Part shown: in pieces, positions 7,941-61,746 of the stretch
How the letters are laid out: each line of letters starts with the position of its first letter
Position numbering within the stretch: the stretch's first letter is position 1
Source: Pseudarthrobacter sp. L1SW
GTDB taxonomy: Bacteria; Actinomycetota; Actinomycetes; Actinomycetales; Micrococcaceae
Length of the DNA: 64,000 nt
Direction of reading: 5' to 3'
NCBI RefSeq assembly: GCF_020809045.1
Contig: NZ_CP078079.1
Location: 3,162,001-3,226,000 of the forward strand
Notes under the pieces: generated by a model
What the model was told of the DNA's origin: nothing
The model's database searches: none
The model's input: only the letters and a program-made list of their open reading frames with translations
Position numbers and translations under genes: made by a program

Positions 7941-9698
7941 TTAGGGAACCATCCAGCCAAGCACCGGCGTCGACTGGAGCAGGACCAGGAGGATCATGAC
8001 GGCCAGGAGCCCAAGGCTCCAGCCCAGGAGCTTCCTGAAGAGCGTGCCTTCTGATCCCTCCATGCCCACGGCGGCGGCTGCCACGGCGAGGTTCTGCAGG
8101 GACAGCATCTTGCCCATCACACCGGCGGACGAGTTTGCCGCGGCCATGAGGACGGGAGGCAGGCCCGTCTGTTCGGCTGCGGAAACCTGGAGCTGGCCGA
8201 AGAGGGAGTTGGACGAGGTGTCAGAGCCGGTGAGGGCGACGCCCAGCCAGCCGATCACCGGGGAGAGGACGGCGAAGAATCCGCCGGCCGAGGCGAGTGC
8301 CAGGCCCAGGGAGGTGGTCTGGCCGGACAGGTTCATGACGAAGGACAGGGCCAGGACGGACATCACGGTCACGATGGTCCACCGCAATTGCTTGAGTGTC
8401 TCCCCGTAAATGCGCAGGCCTGCTGCGGCCGGGATGCGGTACAGGGCCATGGTGATGATCCCGGAGATGAGGAGGAGCGTGCCGGTGGCCTTGAGGTGGT
8501 CGAACTTGAACTTTTGCGCGGCCACGTGCTTGCCGTCCGCGTCCACAACGTCCAGGCCGGGCCAGGAGAAGCTCACGCTTCCGGCCGCGCTGAGCCAGGT
8601 CTTGACCACCGGGATCTGGGCGATGGAGAAAATGGCCATAATGATCAGGTACGGGGCTATGGCCATCCAGATTTCCCGCGGCCCCGGCCGCTGGGCGGAA
8701 CTGCCGGCCGGTGCCAAGACCCGGGTGGTCGCAGCGGCGGAGACGGCCTCGGTAACGGAGGCAGACGCCGGAATCCTCCCCGAGGCGGGGCGGCGGCCGT
8801 CCGTGGACGGGCCCGACGGCGGTTCCTCCTCCCCGGGCTGGTCCGGGCCGCTGGCCTGGCCGGACATTTCGATGATCTCCCGGGGCTGCCAGACGCGCAG
8901 CATCAGCAGCACCGCGGCCACGGTGGCTACGGCGGCCACAACGTCCGTCAGTTCCACGGCGAAGTAGTTCGAGGTAATGAACTGGAAGATGCCGAATACG
9001 GCGCCGGCCACCAGTGCCACGGGCCACGTCTGCTTCAAACCGCGCTTGCCGTCCACGATGAAGACGAGCAGCAGGGGCACGATGAGGGCAATGAAGGGCG
9101 TCTGGCGCCCGGCCATCGAGGACAGGTCGTGCAGCGGCAGGCCGGTGACGCCGTTGAGGGCAATGATGGGTGCGGCCATGGCACCGAAGGCCACAGGTGC
9201 CGTGTTGGCCAGCAATGACACAACGGCTGACTTGAAGGGCTTCATGCCGGCGGCCATCAGCATGGCGGCAGTAATGGCCACCGGCGCGCCGAATCCGGCC
9301 AGGGATTCCAGCAGCGCGCCGAAGCAGAATGCGATCAGGATCGAGAGGATGCGCAGGTCATTGGAGATGGACCGGATGGTCCGGCCAAGGGCGTCGAACC
9401 AGGGCGTGGCGACGGTGAGTTTGTAGACCCAGAGGGCGTTGATGAGGATCCAGAGGATGGGGAAGAAGCCGTAGAAGGCGCCTGCGGCCGTGGCACTGAA
9501 TACCTGGTCCAGGGGCATCTGCCACACGACGGCTGCCAGGACGATGGACAGCAGCAGGCTGGTCAACGCAGCTTTTGCGGCTTTCACGCGGAAAACGCCC
9601 AACAGGACGAACAAGAGGATCAACGGCAGCGCCGCACACAGGGCCGAGAGGCCCAGCGAACCCCAGAGGGGGTCCACGACTTGCTGATAAGTGCTCAC
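7941..9698 (-). CDS. LctP-family lactate/glycolate permease (paralogue 2)
   Basis: A 585-residue LctP-family transporter very similar to the one at 3006-4745 over all membrane segments, including GSDTSSNSLFG and ANSSAGVMGKMLS. The main difference is the hydrophilic loop near residues 270-340. The GTG start has a strong AAAGGAG about six bases upstream. Neighbours are the GlcD-like oxidase downstream and a divergent malate synthase, so a GlcA-like glycolate role is inferred. LctP proteins often carry both lactate and glycolate, so substrate cannot be set from sequence alone. Confidence 0.88.
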   Translation of the reverse strand: MSTYQQVVDPLWGSLGLSALCAALPLILLFVLLGVFRVKAAKAALTSLLLSIVLAAVVWQMPLDQVFSATAAGAFYGFFPILWILINALWVYKLTVATPWFDALGRTIRSISNDLRILSILIAFCFGALLESLAGFGAPVAITAAMLMAAGMKPFKSAVVSLLANTAPVAFGAMAAPIIALNGVTGLPLHDLSSMAGRQTPFIALIVPLLLVFIVDGKRGLKQTWPVALVAGAVFGIFQFITSNYFAVELTDVVAAVATVAAVLLMLRVWQPREIIEMSGQASGPDQPGEEEPPSGPSTDGRRPASGRIPASASVTEAVSAAATTRVLAPAGSSAQRPGPREIWMAIAPYLIIMAIFSIAQIPVVKTWLSAAGSVSFSWPGLDVVDADGKHVAAQKFKFDHLKATGTLLLISGIITMALYRIPAAAGLRIYGETLKQLRWTIVTVMSVLALSFVMNLSGQTTSLGLALASAGGFFAVLSPVIGWLGVALTGSDTSSNSLFGQLQVSAAEQTGLPPVLMAAANSSAGVMGKMLSLQNLAVAAAAVGMEGSEGTLFRKLLGWSLGLLAVMILLVLLQSTPVLGWMVP

Positions 9699-9819
9699 AA
9701 AAAACTCCTTTGTGTTTGGAGCAGGGGGAGGTGATGGAACGCGGTACAGGGGTGAAGCGCCAGCAAAATTCCACGATGTGAGAGGGAGATTTCTTCAGAT
9801 GGATCTGAGACTACGTAGC

Positions 9820-55759: not shown

Positions 55760-58330
55760 ATGACCACGCAGCTTGATTTCGCGCGGGTTTCTTTCGCTGC
55801 CGATCTTGCGCGCTACGGAAACCGGCCTGCCATCCTCGCCGACGGGCTGACGCTGACCTACCGGGAACTGGCCGCCCGCGTGGACAGCTTTGCCCGGAGG
55901 CTGGGCACCGAACGGCGCCTGATTGCCCTTGCGGCGTCCAACGACGTCGAATCCCTGGTGGCGTACCTCGCTGCCCTCGCGTCCGGGCACCCGCTGATCC
56001 TCCTCCCGGAGGACAAGCCCGCGGCCCTCCAATCCCTGGTAGCCGCCTACGACCCCGACGTGGTGGTCCGGTCCGCCAACGGCAAGTGCGTCCTGGACGA
56101 ACGCAGGCCCGTGACCAGGCACAACCTGCATCCGGACCTCGCACTCCTCCTCAGCACCTCGGGCTCCACGGGTTCCCCCAAACTGGTCCGGCTGTCCCAC
56201 GCCAACCTGCAGGCCAACGCCGAGTCCATCGCAACGTATCTGCGGATCACGGCCGAGGACCGGGCCGCCACCACGCTGCCGATGTCCTACTGCTACGGCC
56301 TCTCCGTCATCAACAGCCACCTGCTCCGCGGCGCAGGCCTGGTCCTGACAGGACTGTCAGTGGTGGATCCGTGCTTCTGGGAGCTGTTCCGGCGGGAAAG
56401 CGCCACTGCGTTCGCTGCCGTGCCTTACACCTTTGAGCTCCTGGAACGCGTGGGGTTCGCGGACATGGACCTGCCCAGCCTGCGCTACGTCACCCAGGCC
56501 GGCGGCAGGCTCGCCCCGGAATCTGTCCGGCACTACGCGGAACTGGGCCGCCGGCAGGGCTGGGAGCTGTTCGTCATGTACGGCGCCACGGAAGCCACGG
56601 CCCGGATGGCCTACCTGCCACCGGACCTCGCCGCGGCCCATCCCGGCGCCATCGGCGTGCCCGTTCCCGGCGGGGACTTCCGCATTGAACCCGTGCCCGG
56701 CCTGGCGGACGGCGAGCTGGTGTACACCGGGCCCAACGTCATGCTGGGATACGCCGAAACGCCGGAGGACCTGGCGGAGGGCCGCACCGTCACCGAGCTC
56801 CGCACCGGCGACCTCGCGGCGAAGAACGACGCCGGCCTCTACGAAGTGCGCGGGCGGCGCAGCCGGTTCGTCAAGATCGTCGGGTTGCGCGTGGACCTGG
56901 GCCAGGTGGAGCGCCTCCTGGCGGACCTCGGAGTGCACGCGGCGAGCGCCGGAACAGACCAGGGGCTCGTTGTGGCGGTCGAAGGAACCCAGGACACCCG
57001 GCTGCTCACCAAAGTCCTGGCCCAGGGCCTCGGCCTGCCCCGCGCCGCCGTCGACATCCATGCCGTGGCGGAACTTCCCCGCCTGGCCACCGGCAAGGTG
57101 GACTACCCCGCCGTGGCGGCGCTCTCCGCAAACGCCCCCACAAACGCCCCCGCCCAGAACGAAACCCCGCACAACGAAACCCACCCCGCCCCGGACAAGC
57201 GCCCGCAGCAGGAGCGCGGCAAGCCCGCGGGTCCGGACACCGTCAGGCGCATCTACGAGGACACCCTGGAGCAAACGGACATCGCGGACACGGACACGTT
57301 CGTCTCGCTCGGCGGCGACTCACTGTCCTTCGTGGCGGCCTCGGTCCGGCTCGAGCAGGCCCTGGGCCACCTGCCCCCGGACTGGCATGTCACGCCGATC
57401 CGGGACCTGGAGCGGCGCCGGGCAGGGAGTCCCGCCCGGACCCGGCTCGCACGGCTCTTCGCTCCCACGGACACCAGCCTGGTCCTCCGGGCCGCGGGAA
57501 TCCTGCTGATCGCCGGCACGCACATCGGCCTGTTCAACTGGCAGGGCATGGCCCACGTCCTCATCGCCGCCGCCGGGTTCAACTTCGCCCGCTTCCAGCT
57601 CTCCGGCGACAGGCTTCCCCGCCTGCGCCGGCAGCTCACCAGCGTGGCCCGGATCGCCGTGCCCAGCATGCTGTTCATCGCTTTCGCCTACCTGGTGACT
57701 GACCGCTACGGCCTGGTGAACATCGTGCTCCTGAACTCCATGCTCGGGGACGAACAGATCACCACGCAGTGGCATTTCTGGTTCATCGAGGTGATCGTCT
57801 ACATCCTGCTGGCCATGACCGCCCTGCTCTCCATCCCGTGGCTGCACCGCGCGGAACGCAGGTTCCCGTTCGTTTTTCCGCTCATCCTGTTCGGCGGCGG
57901 GCTCCTGACCCGCTACGAAATCGTGGAACCCGGCGTGCCATACACCGTCCCTGCCCTGTGGCTCTTCGCGCTCGGATGGGCGGTGGCGCGGTCCCGCAAC
58001 CTCGCGCAGCGCTGCATCGTTTCCGTCCTGGCCGTCCTCACCGTTCCGGGGTTCTTCGAGGACGCCAACCGCGATGCCACGGTGGTTGCCGGGGTCCTGC
58101 TGCTTGTGTGGCTGCCCACCCTCCCCATGCCGCGGGTCCTGGGCCCGGTGACGGTCCTGCTGGCCAGCGCCTCCATGCACATCTACCTTGTCCACTGGCT
58201 GGTCTACCCGCCGCTGGCCGGCCTGGGCCTTCCGCTGGCACTGGCCGCCTCGTTGGCGGCTGGGGTGGCCTACTGGGCTTTGTGCAACAGGGTTGCCGGG
58301 GCCGCGCACCGCCTGCTCGCGCGGAAGTGA
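55760..58330 (+). CDS. Fused adenylation-carrier-membrane acyltransferase protein
   Basis: An 856-residue, three-part enzyme. Residues 1-455 are an AMP-binding/NRPS-like adenylation domain (core ATP loop LLLSTSGSTGSPKLVRL, FVMYGATEATARM, RTGDLAAKNDAGLYEVRGRR, ending PRLATGKVDYP). Residues 490-560 are a phosphopantetheine carrier (TFVSLGGDSLSFVA, with the Ser). Residues 575-856 are about nine to ten membrane helices of acyltransferase-3-like type. This combines the jobs of DltA, DltC and a membrane acyl transferase in one chain, so it may activate a small carboxylic or amino acid and transfer it across the membrane. An iron box precedes it. The start ATG has a weak ribosome site. Substrate and acceptor are unknown. 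Confidence 0.82.
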   Translation: MTTQLDFARVSFAADLARYGNRPAILADGLTLTYRELAARVDSFARRLGTERRLIALAASNDVESLVAYLAALASGHPLILLPEDKPAALQSLVAAYDPDVVVRSANGKCVLDERRPVTRHNLHPDLALLLSTSGSTGSPKLVRLSHANLQANAESIATYLRITAEDRAATTLPMSYCYGLSVINSHLLRGAGLVLTGLSVVDPCFWELFRRESATAFAAVPYTFELLERVGFADMDLPSLRYVTQAGGRLAPESVRHYAELGRRQGWELFVMYGATEATARMAYLPPDLAAAHPGAIGVPVPGGDFRIEPVPGLADGELVYTGPNVMLGYAETPEDLAEGRTVTELRTGDLAAKNDAGLYEVRGRRSRFVKIVGLRVDLGQVERLLADLGVHAASAGTDQGLVVAVEGTQDTRLLTKVLAQGLGLPRAAVDIHAVAELPRLATGKVDYPAVAALSANAPTNAPAQNETPHNETHPAPDKRPQQERGKPAGPDTVRRIYEDTLEQTDIADTDTFVSLGGDSLSFVAASVRLEQALGHLPPDWHVTPIRDLERRRAGSPARTRLARLFAPTDTSLVLRAAGILLIAGTHIGLFNWQGMAHVLIAAAGFNFARFQLSGDRLPRLRRQLTSVARIAVPSMLFIAFAYLVTDRYGLVNIVLLNSMLGDEQITTQWHFWFIEVIVYILLAMTALLSIPWLHRAERRFPFVFPLILFGGGLLTRYEIVEPGVPYTVPALWLFALGWAVARSRNLAQRCIVSVLAVLTVPGFFEDANRDATVVAGVLLLVWLPTLPMPRVLGPVTVLLASASMHIYLVHWLVYPPLAGLGLPLALAASLAAGVAYWALCNRVAGAAHRLLARK

Positions 58331-58463: not shown

Positions 58464-58520
58464 TCTCGCGCTGGCTGCCCGCTGGGGGCAGGCGAACCAG
58501 CGCCGCACGTGGAGGTTTGC

Positions 58521-59210
58521 ATGGAACAGGAAATGCGTCCCCTGACCGACGACGAACTGATGGCGGAACAGGCAACGGCATTGCCGGACAAGGAAGTTGC
58601 CTCTGTCCTTGACCTGAACGCGGATCTGGACCTTGGCATCGATGCGGCGGCACCCATCGACCTAGCCGTGGCTGCCAACGCCAACGTGGCCGCGCCCATC
58701 GACGCCGCCGCTTCGGCCAACATCCTCTCCTACGGCTCCGAAGCCCAGGCTCTGGCGGACCAAGGGGTCATGATCGAGCAGGGCATTGTTGCCGACGCCA
58801 ATGCGGCATCCGCCCAGGACAGCACCATCGACCAGTCGAACGACACCGTGGACGGCGGCACCACGGACGCCGGCACGGAGGACGGCACCGCGGGCGCCGG
58901 GACCACCGACGCCGGCGGCGCTCTGCCCGACGTCGGTTCTCTGCCCGTGGATCCGGCTGCCGCACTCGACGGCGACCTGCTCAACGTCAATGTGGACCTT
59001 GCCGCCGACGCGGACATCGCAGCCCCGATCAACGGTGCCGTGGCAGCCAACGCCAACGTGGCTGCCCCGATCGACGCCGCGGTTGCGGCGAACATCGGCT
59101 CCATCGACAGCCAGGCCTACGCCGTGGCCGAACAGGATGCCATCATCAGCCAGAACATCGAGGGCGAAGCCAACGCCACTGCCGACCAGCAGTCCGACCT
59201 CCGGCAGTAA
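58521..59210 (+). CDS. Duplicated-repeat peptide, partner of PqqD-like M50 protease
   Basis: A 229-residue Ala/Asp-rich acidic protein without a signal peptide. The N-terminal 30 residues (MEQEMRPLTDDELMAEQATA, LPDKEVASVLDL) look like a leader peptide. Two 46-residue repeats (44-89 and 168-213) share AVAANANVAAPIDAA and a Q-rich end. The region between (100-150) is Thr/Gly/Asp-rich. GGAGG lies five bases before the ATG. The protease gene follows after five bases. The leader/RRE-like pairing suggests a precursor, but no cleavage site is certain. Confidence 0.7.
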   Translation: MEQEMRPLTDDELMAEQATALPDKEVASVLDLNADLDLGIDAAAPIDLAVAANANVAAPIDAAASANILSYGSEAQALADQGVMIEQGIVADANAASAQDSTIDQSNDTVDGGTTDAGTEDGTAGAGTTDAGGALPDVGSLPVDPAAALDGDLLNVNVDLAADADIAAPINGAVAANANVAAPIDAAVAANIGSIDSQAYAVAEQDAIISQNIEGEANATADQQSDLRQ

Positions 59211-59215
59211 CACCC

Positions 59216-61630
59216 ATGACCCACACCAGCGGCGGGCCACGCACCCAGGCGGGCCCGCCGTCGTCCGCTGCGCCCCTTGCCCACCACCTGCTGCACGCTC
59301 CCGCCCGGGCTGACGGCGTGCAGCTCATCGGCCCCGCCGAGGGCTCCGGCTACCGGGAACCGCCGGCGCTGGTCCGCCGCGCTGACGGGCAAGCCCTCCA
59401 GCTGACGCCGCTGCTGTTCGCGGTGCTGGAGGCAGTGGACGGCACCCGGACCGTGGAGGAGGTGGCCCGGCATGCCAGCGAGGCGTCGGGAAGGCTGGTC
59501 AGCGCGGAAAACGTCCGCAGCTTGATGGACTCGCAGTTGCTGCCGCTGGGCCTGCTGCGGCTTGCGGACGGGTCCCAGCCGGAGGTCCGGAAGGCGGACC
59601 CGCTGCTGGGCATGCGCTTCCGCTACACCGTGACCGATCCGGAACGCACCCGCAGGATCACGGCACCTTTCGCGGTTCTGTTCAACCCGCTCATTGTAGT
59701 TCTGGTGACCCTGGGGTTCCTGGCAGCCTGCTGGTGGGTGCTGATGGTCAAGGGCCTGGCCTCGGCCACCCACGAGGCGTTCGAGAAGCCCGTCCTGCTC
59801 CTGCTGATTTTCGCCGTCACCATCCTTTCGGCAGGGTTCCACGAGTTCGGTCACGCCGCCGCGGCCCGCAGGGGCGGGGCAACGCCCGGGGCCATAGGCG
59901 CAGGGTTGTACCTGATCTGGCCGGCATTCTTCACGGACGTCACGGATTCCTACCGGCTGGGCCGCGGCGGCCGGATCCGCACGGACCTTGGCGGCCTGTA
60001 CTTCAACGCCATTGTTGCCGTGGCCATCATGGGGCTGTGGTGGGCCACAGGCTTCGACGCCCTGCTGCTGGTGGTGGTCACGCAGATCCTCCAGATGGTC
60101 CGGCAGCTGCTCCCTTTGGTGAGGTTTGACGGCTACCACCTACTCGCCGACGCCACCGGAGTCCCTGATCTGTTCCAGCGCATCAAGCCGGTCCTGCTGG
60201 GCCTGCTTCCGTGGCGGTGGGGACGGCCGGAAAACAAGGTCCTCAAACCGTGGGCGCGCGCCGTGGTGACCCTGTGGGTGCTGGTCACCGTGCCGCTGCT
60301 GCTGTTCAGCCTTGCCATGATGGTGTTCGCCCTCCCCCGGCTTCTGGCCACCGCCTGGAGCAGCGCCGCAAAGCAGCAGGACCTGCTCGCCGGCAGCCTT
60401 GCCGACGGCGACCTTGCCGGCGCCGCCGTGCGAGGCCTGGCCCTTGCAACCGTGGCCCTGCCCATGGTGGGCATGCTCTACATCCTGGTGCGGCTGCTGC
60501 GGCAACTGGTCACCGGCCTGTGGCGGAAGACCCGCGGCCGGGCACTCCGGCGCACCGCGGCAATGGGCGTGGTGGCGGCGCTGCTGGCCGGGCTGGCCTG
60601 GGCGTGGTGGCCCGACGGCGGCACGTACCTTCCGGTCCAGCCGTACGAACGCGGAACGCTGGCCGATGCGACGGCCTCGATCCTGCCCGCTTCCGCTTCC
60701 GCTTCCGCCACAACGCTGCGGGAAGGCGGCAGCGGACGGACCGTGGCGTTGTGGCCCGAAGGCGCGGCGAAGCCCACCCGGGAGGACCCGCAGCTGAGCA
60801 TGGTGCTGGTGCCGGTGGACAGCCCGGCGGGGGCTGCCCCGGCTGGATCCACAGGTCCAGCAGCGCCCTCCTGGGTGTTCCCGTTCGAAAGGCCGGACGC
60901 TCCCGAAGAGGGCGGCAACCAGGCGCTGGCCGTGAACACCACCGACGGCTCCGTCACCTACAGCGTGGCGTTCGCCCTGGTGTGGGCTGAGGACGGGGAG
61001 CCGGTTGATACCCGGAACGAGGCGTATGCCTTTGCCAGCTGCAGCGGCTGCGCTGCCATTGCGGTGGGTTTCCAGGTTGTCCTCATCCTGGGGCAGGCGG
61101 ACGTTGTGGTCCCGGAGAACCTGTCGGCTGCGGCGAACTACAACTGCCTTGAGTGCCTCACGTACGCCCTCGCCAGCCAGCTGGTCCTGACCCTGGACGG
61201 GCCGCTGACGGAGGACGGCATGGCGGCGCTGCAGGCCCTGTGGGCCGAGATTGCCGAGTACGGCCGGAACATCCGGAATGTGCCGCTCTCCGAAATCCAG
61301 GCCACGCTGTCCTCCTACAAGGAACAGATCACGGCCATCATCCAGGCGGACCCGAGCGCCACCAAGGGTTCCGCTCCGGCAAGCACTCCCGCCCCTTCGG
61401 GGGAACCGGGACCAACCGGAAGCCCGACGCCGGCCCCGTCCGCGCCCGGCACCGGCGCAACCGCTCCGGCAGGAACGGCGCCCGCCACTGCTCCGGCAAC
61501 GCAGCCTGCCCCAGGCGAGGCGCCGGCGTCGTACGCGCCCGTTGAGACGCCGGTCCCAACGGCGGATACTGGGGGCACGGCCCCCGCTGCCGAACCGCTC
61601 CCCACCGCTAACCCCAGCCAGGAGAACTGA
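59216..61630 (+). CDS. PqqD-like/M50 site-2-type membrane metalloprotease
   Basis: An 804-residue protein. Residues about 40-120 resemble a PqqD-type peptide-recognition element (QLTPLLFAVLEAVDGTRTVE). The M50 zinc protease core has HEFGH near residue 208 (SAGFHEFGHAAAARRGG) and the third ligand in LVRFDGYHLL near 304. Several membrane helices continue to about 470. The extracytoplasmic part has CSGC and CLEC pairs (about 610 and 645) within a conserved FQVVLILGQADVVVPEN domain. The last 90 residues are a Pro/Ala/Ser/Thr tail. It lies five bases after the repeat peptide and probably binds or cleaves it. Function is inferred. Confidence 0.8.
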   Translation: MTHTSGGPRTQAGPPSSAAPLAHHLLHAPARADGVQLIGPAEGSGYREPPALVRRADGQALQLTPLLFAVLEAVDGTRTVEEVARHASEASGRLVSAENVRSLMDSQLLPLGLLRLADGSQPEVRKADPLLGMRFRYTVTDPERTRRITAPFAVLFNPLIVVLVTLGFLAACWWVLMVKGLASATHEAFEKPVLLLLIFAVTILSAGFHEFGHAAAARRGGATPGAIGAGLYLIWPAFFTDVTDSYRLGRGGRIRTDLGGLYFNAIVAVAIMGLWWATGFDALLLVVVTQILQMVRQLLPLVRFDGYHLLADATGVPDLFQRIKPVLLGLLPWRWGRPENKVLKPWARAVVTLWVLVTVPLLLFSLAMMVFALPRLLATAWSSAAKQQDLLAGSLADGDLAGAAVRGLALATVALPMVGMLYILVRLLRQLVTGLWRKTRGRALRRTAAMGVVAALLAGLAWAWWPDGGTYLPVQPYERGTLADATASILPASASASATTLREGGSGRTVALWPEGAAKPTREDPQLSMVLVPVDSPAGAAPAGSTGPAAPSWVFPFERPDAPEEGGNQALAVNTTDGSVTYSVAFALVWAEDGEPVDTRNEAYAFASCSGCAAIAVGFQVVLILGQADVVVPENLSAAANYNCLECLTYALASQLVLTLDGPLTEDGMAALQALWAEIAEYGRNIRNVPLSEIQATLSSYKEQITAIIQADPSATKGSAPASTPAPSGEPGPTGSPTPAPSAPGTGATAPAGTAPATAPATQPAPGEAPASYAPVETPVPTADTGGTAPAAEPLPTANPSQEN

Positions 61631-61746
61631 TGTTATTGAGCAAGGGAACGTCCGTGGAATGGAACACCCCGCAGGCCAAGACCGGAGCCCGGGCAGCGCA
61701 CAAGGCGTCCGCCCTCACCGAAACTGTCAAAACCGGGAAGAAGTAG
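61630..61746 (+). CDS. Shortened DUF2945 (HVA1)-like protein, 38 aa
   Basis: The ATG overlaps the protease stop as TGATG. The product begins MLLSKGTSVEWNTPQAKTG and ends AAHKASALTETVKTGKK. These match the start and the end of the roughly 65-residue HVA1/DUF2945 fold, with the middle strands missing. It is probably an internally deleted relic, or a minimal variant still translated in the operon. The next gene starts five bases after its stop. Confidence 0.6.
   Translation: MLLSKGTSVEWNTPQAKTGARAAHKASALTETVKTGKK

Follow-up and report, generated by a model that had tools for sequence, protein, structure and literature searches.

A PqqD/RRE-like site-2 protease recurrently paired with leader-core precursors, and usually a CxxC protein, in actinobacteria

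The fusion of an RRE to a site-2 (S2P) protease is already known from the daptides, whose precursors carry an ELExMEAP leader and an invariant C-terminal Thr (PMC10036551). In the epipeptide pathway, the membrane M50 protease EpeP (EpeP/YydH/LiaK) likewise serves a leader peptide and is thought to cleave and perhaps export it (PMC10885120), and in the TMcin pathway the leader is removed at the membrane by TmcP, a DUF3267 protease of the S2P clan (PMC13252029). Here we describe a two-gene locus in the window, by which we mean the whole 64,000-nucleotide stretch analysed from Pseudarthrobacter sp. L1SW, and compare it with these systems and with its own relatives.

Layout of the locus and comparison with described proteases

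The first-pass annotation had described an acidic 229-residue protein followed, after a 5-base gap, by an 804-residue protein with HEFGH, CxxC/CxxC and Pro/Ala-rich parts. The sequence bears this out: the first product, encoded at 58521-59210, has a net charge of -38, the gap lies at 59211-59215, and all of the named elements are present in the second product (Table 1).

Table 1 Features of the locus, in window coordinates
Feature	Positions	Strand	Basis
GGAGG ribosome-binding site of the precursor gene	58511-58515	+	sequence
Precursor gene, 229 aa, one leader and two cores	58521-59210	+	sequence, relatives, short-peptide profile
Leader, residues 5-40 (MRPLTDDELMAEQATALPDKEV...), putative RRE-binding segment	58533-58640	+	LPDKEV near-invariant in alignment, profile match, low dN
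Core repeat 1, residues 44-105	58650-58835	+	alignment, profile E 1.5e-6
Variable acidic linker, residues 106-150	58836-58970	+	length and sequence differ between species
Core repeat 2, residues 153-229 (repeat proper 168-229)	58977-59207	+	alignment, profile E 4e-9
RRE / site-2 (M50) protease / CxxC/CxxC protein, 804 aa	59216-61630	+	sequence, NCBIfam match, predicted fold
PqqD/RRE-like winged-helix domain, residues 27-119	59294-59572	+	AF2: three strands, then three helices; matches to PqqD 5sxy, TbiB1 5v1v and TruD/LynD-type heterocyclase
HEFGH zinc motif, residues 209-213	59840-59854	+	H209, E210 and H213 invariant
DGYH, distal metal-ligand motif of S2P proteases, residues 305-308	60128-60139	+	D305 invariant
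Last transmembrane segment, residues 443-464	60542-60607	+	hydropathy, positive-inside loop charges (+8 before), AF2 helix
CxxC/CxxC domain, two related halves	60914-61333	+	CxxC at 61040-61051 and 61145-61156; cysteines invariant
Pro/Ala/Thr-rich C-terminal tail, last ~90 residues	61364-61627	+	sequence; pLDDT about 30-35

The annotated span of 58521-61746 placed both genes correctly, but its end takes in a small unrelated ORF (61630-61746), which travels with a downstream sulfide-quinone-reductase-like (SQR-like) gene and was rejected as part of the system. This 38-residue ORF overlaps the protease stop codon (ATGA); its relatives are ~68-residue Hva1_TUDOR proteins preceding the SQR-like gene, and the window copy appears internally shortened. 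The gene at 55760-58330, encoding an adenylation - carrier - acyltransferase-3 fusion, was considered as a tailoring enzyme and rejected, as few relatives have it, and at differing positions around the module (L003, L010, L057); it looks like a mobile neighbour. Conservation of the whole operon was also rejected, since the S9 peptidase, acetate kinase and SQR genes adjoin the module only within Arthrobacter-like genomes.

The PqqD-type element proposed for the N-terminus of the 804-residue protein is PqqD-like by structure. The AF2 model of this domain (pLDDT about 82-95 over residues 31-120) has the order of an RRE fold, with strands at residues 36-40, 51-54 and 60-63 and helices at 65-73, 80-91 and 97-108. 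Its top Foldseek match was PqqD 5sxy (probability 0.97, E 0.23), and VIA-align superposed it on the lasso RRE TbiB1, which was solved with its leader, at Z 8.0. The membrane part, over much of which AF2 is confident, matched the folds of RseP, SpoIVFB and mjS2P at Z 8-9 (VIA-align), and combines HExxH with a distal Asp in a membrane bundle, as in site-2 proteases (MEROPS M50 / S2P). The Z values for both domains are moderate when taken alone, but they fit the zinc motifs and the match to the daptide protease in NCBIfam. From hydropathy and loop charges, the C-terminal domain is predicted to lie outside. The protein has no Pfam match, and profiles built from the core, CxxC and protease alignments found nothing in the PDB.

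Judged by profile matches, the closest relatives of the window protease are the daptide and epipeptide proteases. Against the daptide protease model MpaP/DapP (NCBIfam NF041824) it scored 103.4 bits (E 1.4e-29), below the cutoff of 300, and against the epipeptide model (NCBIfam NF058609) 34.5 bits (E 1.6e-8), below the cutoff of 225 and over the protease part only. We rejected a daptide identity on the protease score, the leader motif, which here is ELxxE..(E/A)LPx(R/K)E, the C-terminus, which is Gln in the aligned precursors of the window type, and the linked enzymes. No MpaB/C/D/M-type enzyme or ABC transporter was recognised as linked at the window locus, and the decarboxylase/dehydrogenase, aminotransferase and methyltransferase of the daptide set were absent among the Pfam-identified neighbours; the CxxC partner is a further difference. 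The locus also differs from the epipeptide pathway in having no linked radical SAM epimerase, and from the TMcin pathway in that the TMcin precursor has a transmembrane helix and the window precursor none, while the window protease does not match PF11667. No Pfam or NCBIfam model covered the precursor or the CxxC protein, and a literature search lying outside most subscription journals found no published description of this system.

Pairing of precursor and protease across genomes

When loci were found by the protease alone, the precursor lay directly upstream at 59 of 60; the contig of the sixtieth starts inside the protease. The co-occurrence of both genes in relatives, which the first-pass annotation had put forward as a check, holds almost without exception, and the neighbours other than these two change between loci. 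In a class-wide sample of 246 genomes, 31 have the peptide, and a protease search with a 303-residue alignment as query found a close RRE-protease in 44, including all 31 peptide genomes; these proteases scored over 250 bits, together with a single fragment at a contig edge, and the next group lay at <95 bits (hypergeometric p 2.3e-29, an indicative value since related genomes are not independent). By pattern, the leader motif was present within 1.7 kb upstream of 92 of the 98 distinct proteases and in 0 of 152 antisense controls; because the pattern was written after the members had been seen, the control counts for more than the 92. Among the six proteases missed, inspection showed the motif for five, and the sixth has just 202 bases of upstream sequence. 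The system is patchy within its family (7/120 genomes). Plasmid carriage was rejected, the plasmid matches being only three, weak and partial. Searching the phylum with the CxxC profile retrieved the domain from 11 loci of other classes; precursors are present at 8 of these and the protease, by pattern, at 7. Taken together, the pairing of precursor and RRE-protease is real, usually has a CxxC third part, and recurs across actinobacteria.

The loci fall into three types, across which the leader motif is kept while the cores vary between clades. Type I, that of the window, has one leader with two cores, and the CxxC domain is fused to the protease. In type II, three short peptides, each a leader with one core (for example LTDEELxQExGEELPDREAMSLINANLAAPVNAAVAANVLSDGSVAYANAEQxAxIxQ), are followed by the protease, and a CxxC protein is encoded separately close by. 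Type III loci, with one or two peptides each, occur in Streptomyces-like and other families and include a paralogue in the window genome itself; in some of them a MinD/ParA-like ATPase is joined to the protease. Leader recognition would be expected to give just this picture, in which the same RRE-protease is paired with a constant leader while the cores change.

The paralogue (L103 8264-11134; G000:C1 about 642260-645130) is a second, diverged RRE-protease with two short LPxRE peptides; it is fused to the ATPase and adjoins a possible BTAD/SARP-type regulator. The same fusion occurs in L110-L112. In one family (L154-L165), an ELLP[DE]R leader is kept in front of unrelated-looking 'NSPxSNN' cores, and the L161 cores are His/Gly-rich with Cys.

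Leader, cores and the CxxC domain

The two 46-residue repeats reported earlier are real: residues 44-89 and 168-213 share 30 of 46 positions, against a best self-match of 18 in 200 shuffles, and the extended repeats (residues 44-105 and 168-229) share 36 of 62. The short-peptide profile matched the window precursor three times, at the leader (E 6e-4), core 1 (1.5e-6) and core 2 (4e-9), and by these matches the precursor is a two-core version of the short single-core peptides. We aligned it (58521-59210) with 23 type I relatives (alignment A1). All of the two-core precursors aligned have Gln as their last residue, and both cores show conserved Gln residues at a spacing of 6-12-6. The window precursor lacks a signal peptide, and at E up to 1 it matches no Pfam model; its short relatives have no Pfam match except one weak one to DUF1344. 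Its core has no cysteine and, with a 19-residue hydropathy maximum of 1.25, is nowhere hydrophobic enough to form a membrane helix. The AF2 model (mean pLDDT 46), too poor for a fold search, tentatively shows the leader as a helix, and four strands whose positions correspond between the two repeats.

Between Arthrobacter-like species, dN was 0.01-0.07 in the leader and 0-0.06 in the cores, against a dS of 0.2-1.3, and rose to 0.15-0.41 in the linker, above both. The cores are under strong purifying selection, and dN so far below dS favours a structural or housekeeping product over a fast-evolving bacteriocin.

The CxxC domain (motifs at residues 609-612 and 644-647 of the 804-residue protein) is an internal duplication (half 1 against half 2, hhalign E 1.7e-7), and its region of the AF2 model is confident only in part. 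In many relatives it is a separate protein near the protease, with a signal-peptide-like N-terminus. The short core aligned in register with the second CxxC half, the core Ser..Ser facing Cys..Cys, at an hhalign score of 26.4, which was reached by 0 of 150 column shuffles (mean 10.0, maximum 19.4); the hhalign probability was 50%, and 3% for the long cores alone. We regard this as a moderate resemblance of core to CxxC domain, which could reflect convergence of Ala/Asn-rich strands. The pattern used showed no CxxC partner for the paralogue in the window genome, nor for some relatives (L110, L111, L154-L165). The CxxC protein of L112 (about 9000-9735) has three CxxC-type repeats, not two.

Proposed maturation route and alternatives

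The locus probably serves to mature an unmodified, beta-rich secreted protein under the guidance of its leader, with RRE-guided leader removal followed by export and docking on the CxxC domain. This reading has computed support in the gene pairing, the domain identities, the leader/core modularity, the recurrent CxxC part and the constraint on the cores. The interpretation in the first-pass annotation, cleavage of the neighbouring peptide after direct recognition by the PqqD-type domain, stands as to the pairing, the RRE/PqqD fold and the conserved leader with varying cores, but it overlooked the CxxC domain as third partner. Its statement that no RiPP modification enzyme lies nearby agrees with our finding that none was recognised among the genes examined within ~9-12 kb.

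In the proposed route, the RRE domain would bind the conserved acidic leader of the precursor in the cytoplasm, and the site-2 protease part would remove the leader at the membrane. The two-core product would then move outward. No signal peptide is present on the precursor, and the neighbourhood has no transporter gene; EpeP, as an M50 protease that cleaves and perhaps exports its peptide, is a precedent for such passage (PMC10885120). Outside, the core repeats may associate with the CxxC/CxxC domain that resembles them, which would be held at the membrane through the fused C-terminus or, in relatives, secreted separately. The product would more likely be a beta-rich assembly bound to the surface than a free antibiotic. 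A stronger version, that this is a widespread actinobacterial surface-assembly system in which unmodified one- or two-core peptides, matured by the RRE-guided intramembrane protease, polymerise as beta-rich fibres on the related, disulphide-stapled CxxC domain as nucleator or anchor, is speculative and on balance doubtful. Curli (CsgA/CsgB) and chaplins, with repeats in which Gln/Asn are regularly spaced and small residues alternate, and with a related partner that is anchored, are a works-like comparison only: the window precursor matches no curlin or chaplin Pfam model, lacks a signal peptide, and is accompanied by an RRE-protease in place of the curli export genes.

Alternatively, the protease could free an antimicrobial core, as in daptide or epipeptide release, with the CxxC protein aiding delivery or immunity. 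The nearest protease families, daptide (1.4e-29) and epipeptide LiaK/YydH (1.6e-8), both come from peptide-antibiotic clusters (PMC10036551, PMC10885120), and short tandem precursors with quite different cores in some clades would suit such a role. However, neither modification enzymes nor an immunity gene were recognised in the neighbourhoods examined, ABC transporter genes lie near a few pair-type loci but none adjoins the window locus, and the cores are nearly identical between species, with dN far below dS; the window core also has neither cysteine nor a stretch of membrane-helix hydrophobicity. We consider bacteriocin release unlikely.

S2P proteases often act in regulated proteolysis, and the precursor might instead be cleaved to a peptide signal, or a membrane regulator might be cleaved with the precursor as trigger or inhibitor. 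Putative SARP/BTAD-type regulators adjoining some pair-type loci and the fusion of several proteases to the MinD/ParA-like ATPase would fit, but type I and II loci have no consistently linked regulator or anti-sigma factor, and a signalling cascade would not account for how leader and cores are organised or for the secreted CxxC partner. We regard such a cascade as distinctly improbable. Least probable by some way is a true RiPP whose cores are modified by unlinked enzymes, with tailoring genes elsewhere: RRE and leader are hallmarks of RiPP pathways, but the gene lists read around the loci contained no recognised modifying enzyme, a result that covers linked genes only.

Returning to leader-guided maturation, the pair recurs with no modifying enzyme recognised among the linked genes examined, and thus appears to be an undescribed route to mature and display unmodified peptides. 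The analysis defines a recurrent module of precursor, RRE-protease and, usually, CxxC repeat protein, and suggests that recognition of leaders by an RRE, familiar from peptide antibiotics, may also serve the maturation of unmodified proteins. With one constant leader and different core types, leader specificity and core exchange are directly testable, and should assembly of the core on the CxxC domain prove true, the module would add a new route of secretion and assembly to those of Gram-positive bacteria.
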